Under the pieces are notes generated by a model that had not been told where the DNA came from, did not search any database, and saw nothing but the letters and a program-made list of their open reading frames with translations. Position numbers and translations under genes: made by a program. From NCBI GenBank assembly GCA_001464335.1, contig LNEV01000008.1, forward strand, positions 124,001 through 188,000: DNA of 64,000 bases, written 5' to 3'. The DNA is from Rhizobiales bacterium Ga0077545 (GTDB lineage Bacteria > Pseudomonadota > Alphaproteobacteria > Rhizobiales > Methylopilaceae). This document shows positions 19,454-52,572 of this stretch, piece by piece (within the stretch, counting starts at the first letter, position 1; every line of letters starts with the position of its first letter).

Positions 19454-19559
19454 TCCCTGCCGCCGCGACCCGGACCCAGTCTCAAGAGGGCGCTCCGGAT
19501 AGCCGAAGCAAGATAAGTGGAGGCTTCTGTTGCCAGGTGCCTCCGAACCCCGCCTGAAA

Positions 19560-19834
19560 GGTGCTAGCCAGCCAGGACTTTAAATCGGTACCTGCACTGC
19601 ATTACGCAGCGACGGCCACCGGAGCATAGTTGTCGTTTGCAACTACAAATTAGCCCGATAACGGCGGTACAATGCCGGGCAAAAGGACAACTTTTACACC
19701 CTCGTCGATCCTGTTTCGCCCCCGCCGCAGCCCGCCCAACGAATGACGGGATCTGGTGGAGGCGCCGGGTACTGCCCCCGGGTCCGAATGGCTTATTACG
19801 AAGGCCGTTTATCACCATAGCCGGACAAGCCGGC
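19560..19834 (-). ncRNA. ssrA: Circularly permuted two-piece tmRNA
   Basis: On the minus strand the acceptor piece (about 19834-19754) comes first and ends in GGCGCCTCCACCA, with CCA at 19756-19754. A short intervening loop (19753-19724) separates it from the coding piece, which starts GGGGGCGAAACAGGATCGAC at 19723. GGGGGCG pairs with CGCCTCC to make a 7-bp acceptor stem with a G-U at position 3, the alanine identity feature. The tag frame is 19640-19602 and encodes ANDNYAPVAVAA followed by TAA. The T-arm GGACCCGGGGGCAGTACCC is present. The 3' end of the coding piece, near 19560, is estimated from the loss of conserved structure. tmRNA rescues stalled ribosomes, and the downstream sspB product serves the same pathway. 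Confidence 0.95.
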
Positions 19835-19840
19835 ACCACG

Positions 19841-19869
19841 AATATAGGGGCAGAGCACGCCCAAATCAA
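19841..19869 (-). promoter_or_regulatory. Promoter of ssrA
   Basis: On the minus strand, TTGATT (19869-19864) and TATATT (19846-19841) are separated by exactly 17 bp, a good sigma-70 type promoter. The predicted transcript start, near 19834, coincides with the start of the acceptor piece. Confidence 0.8.
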
Positions 19870-19910
19870 AGCCCCAGATGCAGGTTGTGGCGTTGTGAAC
19901 CGGCAAAACA

Positions 19911-36442: not shown

Positions 36443-36706
36443 TCAGTTGGTCGGGTAGCCGTAGCGGCTGCGCGCCGCCCGAACGGCGTTTGAAGCGGCG
36501 CCATCCTGACTGGCCGAGCAAAGCTTGCCTGCGGCCGCGAGGTCGGCGGACGCCTTCGCGTGAACGCTCTTGCCGACATGGCCGACCTTCAGGTCGTTGT
36601 CGAGAAGCTTCTGGAAGGTCGAGATATCCGTCTTGCAATTGGCCAGAGCCGGACTGACGAAGGCGAGGGGCAGGGCCAGGAGCCCGAGAGAGATGCTGCG
36701 AGTCAT
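36443..36706 (-). CDS. Small secreted protein of unknown function
   Basis: An 87-residue protein with a signal peptide (MTRSISLGLLALPLAFVSPA, cleavage near ALANC). The mature part (about 65 residues) has two cysteines and a helical stretch (ISTFQKLLDNDLKVG, then ASADLAAAGKLCSA) ending RSRYGYPTN. The start at 36706 is chosen because it opens the signal peptide; a GTG 24 codons upstream is also in frame. No family is recognised. It is divergent from the leuA leader. Confidence 0.65.
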   Translation of the reverse strand: MTRSISLGLLALPLAFVSPALANCKTDISTFQKLLDNDLKVGHVGKSVHAKASADLAAAGKLCSASQDGAASNAVRAARSRYGYPTN

Positions 36707-36886
36707 GGCGTAAAATTGCCGTCTCCACGGCGTTCGGGCAAGCCGGGAAGGCCGCCTGTGCCCAGCCGGTTCCGGCACGGGGGGTCTTGCCGCCGCGCCG
36801 GGAACCGCTTATGAAATCGGCCTCCGGGCTGCCTTTGGGTCAGCTCCGGCGTAGAGAATGACTTCAGGCGCAACGGGAACGAGACC

Positions 36887-36982
36887 ATGCTGGTCCGCAC
36901 CACATTCGACGACAAGACGGCACGGCGTTTCGCCGCCGGCGTCGCGCGCCTTCTTTCCGGGCTCCTTCTTAGCCGCCCCTGA
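36887..36982 (+). CDS. leuA leader peptide, leucine-rich
   Basis: A 31-codon frame starting MLVRTTFDDK and ending RLLSGLLLSRP. Five of the seven codons from 36950 to 36970 are leucine (CTT CTT TCC GGG CTC CTT CTT). GGGA (36875-36878) lies 8 bases before the ATG. The stop codon TGA (36980-36982) is itself part of a strong stem, and leuA begins 107 bases later. This matches a ribosome-mediated leucine attenuator: low charged tRNA-Leu stalls translation at the cluster. The peptide is inferred; no database comparison was possible. Confidence 0.8.
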   Translation: MLVRTTFDDKTARRFAAGVARLLSGLLLSRP

Positions 36983-37016
36983 ACGCCGGCCGGGCTTTTG
37001 CCTGGGCGCTCAGGGG
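36976..37016 (+). promoter_or_regulatory. Stem-loop following the leu leader peptide
   Basis: CCCCTGA (36976-36982), which includes the leader stop codon, pairs perfectly with TCAGGGG (37010-37016). CGCC and GGCG inside the loop extend the structure, around a GGGCTTTTGCC turn. There is no T-tract after it, so control may use Rho or affect leuA translation rather than classic intrinsic termination. Confidence 0.6.
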
Positions 37017-37089
37017 AGATTGACCGCTCAGAAAACAAACCCGGAATACCGAGCCCAAGGCCGGTCCTGAATTCAGAAGGCAGATCCCG

Positions 37090-51581: not shown

Positions 51582-51637
51582 CTGGGCCCGCCCCGCGCAT
51601 CTTGCGTGTCTGCGCCGTGACCTTTATGTGACGCGCA

Positions 51638-51750
51638 TCTGCTTGGGGTGCGCGTTTTCCTGTCCGAAGGCGCGCTGAGAGGCATGGGCCATCCCGGTCC
51701 GACGCCAACCCACGAACCTGATCCGGGTCATGCCGGCGGAGGAAAGCGGG
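51638..51750 (+). promoter_or_regulatory. TPP riboswitch (THI element) controlling thiD
   Basis: The conserved core is present: GGGGTGC (51645-51651), CGCTGAGAGG (51673-51682), then ACCCACGAACCTGATCCGGGT (read in parts, around 51709-51728), and TGCCGGCGGAGGAAAG (51731-51746). P1 pairs TCTGCTT (51638-51644) with AAGCGGGA (51744-51751). The GCGGGA immediately before the thiD ATG is part of the P1 3' strand, so thiamine pyrophosphate would hide the ribosome-binding site. Control is therefore probably translational, and there is no terminator after the aptamer. Confidence 0.95.
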
Positions 51751-51753
51751 ACG

Positions 51754-52572
51754 ATGGCACAGACCTCTTCCACGATACCGATTGCACTCACGATTGCGGG
51801 CACCGATCCGTCGGGCGGCGCTGGCATTCAGGCCGATCTGAAAACCTTTTCGGCGCTCGGCGTCTATGCAGCGACCGTCATTACGGCGCTCGTCGCCCAG
51901 AACACGATGGGCGTGCGCTCGATCCACGACGTGCCGCCGCCCTTCATCGCCGAACAGCTTGCCTCGGTGTTCGACGATCTCGACGTCAAGGCCGTGAAGA
52001 TCGGCATGCTTTCGCAGCCCGCCGTCATCGAGACGGTGGCAGCCTCGCTCGAGCGCTATCGGGCGAAAACCATCGTGCTCGATCCCGTCATGGTCGCGGC
52101 GTCCGGCGACAGCCTGCTTGTTCCCGAAGCGGTCGATGCGCTGCGCACATTGCTCATCCCCAAGGCACTCGTCATTACGCCGAACATGCCGGAAGCCGCC
52201 GTCCTGCTCGGCGAGGACATGGCGGAAAACGAAGCTGACATGATCCGCCAGGCGGAGGCGCTTCTGGCCCTTGGCCCGCGCGCGGTGCTTCTGAAGGGCG
52301 GGCATGGGCACGGCGGCGAAAGCACCGACATCCTGATCGACGAGACCGGCCTCAGCCGCTTCACCGCGCGCCGCGTCGCCACGCAGAACACCCACGGCAC
52401 CGGGTGCACGTTGTCCTCGGCCATTGCTGCGGGCCTCGCGCACGGCAAGCCGCTGCGCACGGCGGTCTCGGATGCCAAGGCCTATATCAGCGCCGCCATC
52501 GCGGCCTCGGACGATCTGTCGGTCGGCCACGGCCACGGCCCCGTCCACCATTTCCACGCCCTCTGGGCGTGA
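51754..52572 (+). CDS. thiD: Hydroxymethylpyrimidine/phosphomethylpyrimidine kinase
   Basis: A 272-residue ribokinase-fold enzyme that phosphorylates HMP and HMP-P for thiamine synthesis. It shows IALTIAGTDPSGGAGIQADLK (read in parts) at the N-terminus, then KIGML and the catalytic loop TQNTHGTGCTLSSAIAAGLA near residue 215. The start at 51754 is set by the riboswitch, which ends 3 bases earlier; an in-frame ATG 24 bases upstream lies inside the aptamer. No other thiamine gene is adjacent. Confidence 0.96.
   Translation: MAQTSSTIPIALTIAGTDPSGGAGIQADLKTFSALGVYAATVITALVAQNTMGVRSIHDVPPPFIAEQLASVFDDLDVKAVKIGMLSQPAVIETVAASLERYRAKTIVLDPVMVAASGDSLLVPEAVDALRTLLIPKALVITPNMPEAAVLLGEDMAENEADMIRQAEALLALGPRAVLLKGGHGHGGESTDILIDETGLSRFTARRVATQNTHGTGCTLSSAIAAGLAHGKPLRTAVSDAKAYISAAIAASDDLSVGHGHGPVHHFHALWA

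Follow-up and report, generated by a model that had tools for sequence, protein, structure and literature searches.

A leucine-rich leader peptide and stop-codon hairpin upstream of leuA in Alphaproteobacteria, a candidate leucine-responsive element

Ribosome-mediated attenuation by leader peptides is known already, as are leuA leaders in groups other than the one considered here. The product of leuA catalyzes the committed step of leucine synthesis. In the enterobacterial leu operon, the attenuator (leuL; Rfam Leu_leader) consists of a terminator and an antiterminator with a U-run, and the leader peptides tnaC and mgtL are coupled to a Rho-dependent readout. At the Caulobacter crescentus ilvBN leader, pausing at Ile/Val codons blocks formation of a terminator hairpin (as described in PMC4117421). 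The LEU element of Actinobacteria lies upstream of leuA and has a base stem formed between a leucine run and the Shine–Dalgarno sequence, with a pseudoknot proposed (Seliverstov et al. 2005, PMC1262725). Here we describe an alphaproteobacterial leuA leader encoded in a 64,000 nt stretch of DNA (hereafter, the window), its distribution, and a candidate mechanism in which a single hairpin would respond to the position of the translating ribosome.

Leader reading frame, hairpin P1, and spacer

Read directly from the sequence, the leader ORF (leuL) begins with ATG at 36887 and ends with TGA at 36980–36982, 108 nt from the start of leuA, and its peptide closes with LLSGLLLSRP-stop (Table 1). As an earlier note on this locus had remarked, five of seven consecutive codons of the 31-codon peptide specify leucine; at the genome's Leu frequency, the chance of such a cluster anywhere in an ORF of this length is ~0.003. 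The run reads CTT, CTT, CTC, CTT, and CTT. It lacks CTG, which in the window's long ORFs is the most frequent Leu codon (42%; CTT, 15%). The last Leu codon, CUU, is located three codons (12 nt) before the stop, and two codons separate it from the final Pro codon. Readthrough or frameshifting from the leader stop into leuA was ruled out by inspection of the stop-to-ATG distances, which in close relatives measure 110, 108, and 109 nt and therefore place leuA in differing frames.

The Pro and stop codons of the leader lie within the 5′ arm of a hairpin, P1, in which CCCCTGA pairs perfectly with TCAGGGG. The same note remarked that this does not look like a classic intrinsic attenuator, and this agrees with what we found: no T-run follows the stem, and a terminator scan returned no + strand terminator-like site between P1 and leuA. 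The sole + strand terminator-like match in the region (36938–36950) is inside the leader ORF, 5′ of P1. The spacer that follows P1 contains only 14 to 16% U. Its C minus G skew is +0.069 versus +0.011 in the upstream stretches of other ORFs, relative to which it is also U-poorer and less structured; the skew is small, and the low U content is untypical of a rut site.

Table 1. Coordinates and supporting evidence for the leuA leader features and for other elements of the window
Feature	Position	Strand	Description or evidence
Small ORF with signal-peptide-like start	36443–36778	−	Divergent from the leader; upstream region common to both
leuL leader ORF	36887–36982	+	31 codons, MLVRTTFDDKTARRFAAGVARLLSGLLLSRP-stop; frame and peptide kept in relatives
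First Leu pair, CTT CTT	36950–36955	+	With flanks, GCCUUCU; predicted partner of the leuA Shine–Dalgarno in the genus
Leucine run, CTC CTT CTT	36962–36970	+	Sequence; Leu codon at −18 kept in relatives
Near-invariant CUU codon plus A (CUUA)	36968–36971	+	72/82 leuA upstreams; alignment
Hairpin P1	36976–37016	+	5′ arm CCCCUGA, 36976–36982; 3′ arm UCAGGGG, 37010–37016; loop with inner stem
Spacer	37017–37074	+	Lacks a U-tract; low in U, little structure, slight excess of C over G
leuA Shine–Dalgarno region, AGAAGGC	37075–37081	+	Minimum-energy fold joins it to the first Leu pair
leuA, 2-isopropylmalate synthase, 516 aa	37090–38640	+	Homologues with a motif of 10 residues
TPP riboswitch	51634–51761	+	57.5 bits, just over the Rfam gathering score of 54.3
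Alphaproteobacterial two-piece (permuted) tmRNA gene	19516–19873	−	

Conservation and distribution

leuA loci were gathered from 60 relatives and from further genomes of the class. A Leu-rich ORF ending in Pro-stop, mostly as Leu-x-x-Pro-stop, lies upstream of leuA in 30 of the 30 closest loci, and the leader peptide itself is kept in close relatives. Among 82 leuA upstream regions from distinct alphaproteobacterial genomes, 72 contain CUUAnnnGCCCC-stop with a matching hairpin. The defining pattern is CT(T/A)AnnnGCC(C/T)C, with the G replaced by A or T in a few; next come a stop codon, for which two sequences have UGG, and a 3′ arm that matches. Comparisons across genomes are the decisive evidence that the arrangement first remarked on is real and far from chance. 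The reading frame, whose loss in close relatives had been named as grounds for abandoning the proposal, is retained: 97% of 150 sequences keep it open over 30 or more codons before the stop, compared with 43% and 54% for the other two frames. In the subset with GC content below 58%, the values are 90% versus 33% and 14%.

The spacing between the leucine codons and the hairpin is fixed. The last Leu codon CUU and the A that follows it are kept in 98 to 99% of sequences, and the Leu codon at position −18, two codons ahead of it, in ~97% of 147 sequences; both sets were partly selected by pattern, and these percentages are inflated because 80 of the sequences were fetched by that very pattern. 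The G before CCCC is likewise conserved, and the two residues encoded after the last Leu vary. The constrained core is CUUAnnnG-CCCC-stop plus its partner arm, with the number of leucines variable; distant relatives encode Leu-Arg-Leu (CUGCGACUUA), so that constancy is limited to the final Leu codon and the Leu codon at −18. P1 alone does not explain the strict A after CUU or the strict G before CCCC, and the alignments point to a class-wide constraint on nucleotides as well as on amino acids.

P1 itself is supported by compensatory change, both with RNAalifold and by a covariation score. In an alignment of 49 diverse sequences, 94% of the cells of a ten-pair stem are paired, and 6 of the 10 pairs show two-sided change. 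The covariation score is 0.275 versus 0.182 ± 0.013 for shuffled alignments, and slid versions of the stem reach at most 0.122. Changes of the stop from UGA to UAG or UAA are compensated on the other arm (e.g., L021 and L039), and in L081 the CCCC arm has become CCUC, opposite AGAGG. In two further loci (L053 and L073), the codon after CCC is UGG; the stem is retained, and the stop has shifted into the loop. Read as natural experiments, these variants suggest that both the stem and a nearby end of translation matter. In a separate observation, two loci (L149 and L178) have a second CCCCTGA copy directly 3′ of the 3′ arm (TCAGGGGAACCCCTGAG); a small competing hairpin could form from this copy.

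Conservation of CUUA and G-CCCC at the nucleotide rather than the amino acid level would also be expected if P1 and CUUA were a protein-binding or RNase-processing site to which the reading frame is secondary. We consider such a site improbable: openness is specific to the leader frame, the Leu codons are strongly kept, and the stop varies only in concert with the opposite arm or by relocation to the loop.

A covariance model of the element, applied with strict filters, matched 90 of 289 genomes of the class, with essentially one match per genome. All 44 matches in genomes in which leuA had been located precede that gene and share its strand. In a sample of the phylum beyond the class, the model gave only chance-level scores (E values of 0.02–0.09). 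A DNA pattern scan of ~85,000 species genomes matched at least 120 stretches. Among the matches listed, which are alphaproteobacterial except for one assigned to Proteobacteria only, all 80 that were fetched are directly upstream of leuA, on the same strand, 126 to 235 nt from the FDTTLRDG motif. One compact RNA element precedes leuA across much of the class, including Bradyrhizobium, Methylobacterium, Caulobacter, and acetic acid bacteria, and the pair of leader and P1 is old. The model found no match in sampled genomes of one family of the same order (f24; ~6 Mb genomes, probably Rhizobiaceae), of which the member examined (G040) has a distant LeuA alone. The absence of the element from this family may explain why work on S. 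meliloti never met it.

Searches of Rfam for this element, including Leu_leader, gave no match in the window (chance matches fell below threshold) or in 20 relatives (E ≤ 0.5). An alphaproteobacterial leuA leader was not found in the open literature searched; an earlier mention is possible in a survey of proteobacterial attenuators (Vitreschak et al. 2004). Neither Rfam nor this literature yielded a class-wide alphaproteobacterial element with this constant core and without a terminator.

Ribosome position and candidate readouts

We simulated a ribosome at each codon of the leader. On the earlier Leu codons, the ribosome leaves P1 intact; at the stop, it melts P1. With the A site two codons 5′ of the last CUU, P1 is intact for any assumed leading edge between 8 and 14 nt, and with the A site one codon past CUU, P1 is mostly or wholly lost for any edge in the same range. 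On the last CUU itself, survival of P1 is 0.84, 0.47, 0.13, and 0.01 for edges of 8, 10, 12, and 14 nt. The model therefore predicts that the near-invariant last CUU is a hinge, the codon at which the leading edge of the ribosome meets P1, and opening of P1 from this codon depends on the footprint assumed. The earlier note had expected a ribosome at the stop to melt the stem and a stalled one to spare it. The first expectation agrees with the model. The second agrees for the earlier Leu codons; for the last CUU, where the outcome changes so steeply with the assumed edge, sparing of the stem by a stalled ribosome cannot be asserted.

Of the mechanisms that could use this arrangement, we tentatively favor, with confidence a little short of even, a leucine-responsive, ribosome-operated leader element controlling leuA, in which closed P1 is the off state and readout is Rho-assisted. 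When charged tRNA-Leu is plentiful, ribosomes would clear the leucine run, terminate at the stop inside P1, and leave; P1 would then close, and leuA would be off. Under leucine shortage, a ribosome would wait with the last CUU in its A site and its leading edge on the CCCC arm, holding P1 open and leuA on. Closed P1 probably lowers leuA expression through Rho-assisted early transcription end in the unstructured spacer. We prefer this readout because neither an intrinsic terminator nor a competing helix was found; the C-over-G, U-poor, weakly structured spacer lends it modest support. The sensor and the hairpin are well supported: the ORF and its conservation, P1 and its covariation, the constant distance from Leu codon to hairpin, and the near-exclusive placement ahead of leuA are all observed. 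We infer the sensing of leucine, the polarity of P1, and the role of Rho.

The polarity of P1 could also be reversed, as in trp leaders and as the earlier note had it. P1 would then be the on structure ahead of a stalled ribosome, and a ribosome at the stop would mask the 5′ arm, leaving the 3′ arm available to an off structure. The position of the stop codon within the 5′ arm fits this scheme, as does the simulation, in which ribosomes on the earlier Leu codons spare P1 and P1 is lost when the ribosome reaches the stop. However, the freed 3′ arm has no conserved partner: its pairing in the spacer is 0.49 versus 0.41 in shuffled spacers, with a mean duplex energy z of −1.1. Moreover, P1 would re-form once the ribosome departed, and the most constrained position is the last codon, where the stem sits at the ribosome edge. 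We therefore regard reversed polarity as unlikely. An antiterminator or second hairpin using the 3′ arm was rejected on the same pairing values, which do not exceed those of shuffles. An extension helix, P0, between the leader and the early spacer was also rejected, being weak and without class-wide effect; the sole group to show it is the distant CGACTTA group, at −10.7 for own and −9.0 for shuffled sequences (p = 0.018). Given the lack of a 3′-arm partner in the spacer and of an intrinsic terminator, the terminator/antiterminator logic of trp and of the enterobacterial leu operon is inapplicable. By analogy, two-state occlusion as in Caulobacter ilvBN fits best.

A translational route would follow the pattern of the actinobacterial LEU element, which has this layout (PMC1262725): the leucine run would mask the leuA Shine–Dalgarno sequence, a stalled ribosome would free it, and P1 would merely juxtapose the parts. 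In the minimum-energy fold of the window, GCCUUCU, at the first Leu pair, indeed pairs with AGAAGGC, at the leuA Shine–Dalgarno, with a probability of 0.84. This pairing reaches 0.84 to 0.85 in the window and two of its three genus relatives, and 0.34 in the fourth member. With a simulated ribosome placed on the Leu codons, access to the ribosome-binding site rises from 0.15 to ~0.3–0.65 in the window and two of the three relatives, and access is raised in all four genus members at most positions simulated. Across 150 genomes, own pairs of leucine run and Shine–Dalgarno score −9.91 versus −9.02 for swapped pairs (0 of 2000 permutations), a difference confounded by base composition. However, the swap test shows no advantage of own pairs in the TTCTTA group, and a distant group with CUGCGACUUA, a poor anti-Shine–Dalgarno, still keeps P1. 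Within genomes, the leuA Shine–Dalgarno is no better a partner than those of other ORFs (mean percentile of 0.65, in the wrong direction, against a comparison set biased to strong sites). Masking as a class-wide rule was rejected on the confounded swap test and the negative within-genome comparison, and we consider the translational reading as a whole rather doubtful. A translational route is possible notably in the genus of the window, where the folds suggest that masking may act locally on top of the common element.

It is possible, if on the doubtful side, that the single hairpin is the whole switch of an old alphaproteobacterial leucine sensor. Such a sensor would operate through ribosome contact placed by the CUU codon, use neither a terminator/antiterminator pair nor Shine–Dalgarno masking, and carry the additional CUUA and G constraints. 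The element offers a clean case for how a leader peptide acts without an intrinsic terminator, and the mechanism is directly testable, given a hinge codon that is well defined and variants that occur naturally (UAG or UAA stops, and a stop in the loop).

Comparison with known systems

Like enterobacterial leuL, the element places ahead of leuA a leader peptide that has Leu codons in succession, but the terminator, antiterminator, and U-run of the enterobacterial attenuator were not found here, nor was a match to Rfam. A likeness to tnaC and mgtL is a candidate one, in that translation of the leader would decide transcription without an intrinsic terminator; those leaders respond to other signals and have other sequences, and the role of Rho at leuA is one that we infer. 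The ilvBN leader of C. crescentus is also an alphaproteobacterial branched-chain leader peptide with a hairpin blocked by a ribosome paused on regulatory codons. It differs in using Ile/Val codons and a Rho-independent terminator, whereas the leuA element has Leu codons and no terminator. With the actinobacterial LEU element, the locus shares a leuA-proximal short ORF with a leucine run, the lack of an intrinsic terminator, and a structured region between that run and leuA. The base stem described there joins the leucine run to the Shine–Dalgarno, a pairing that is predicted here in the genus and is unsupported class-wide. The hairpin of the alphaproteobacterial element, in contrast, contains the stop codon, and its core is CUUAnnnGCCCC-stop/UCAGGGG.
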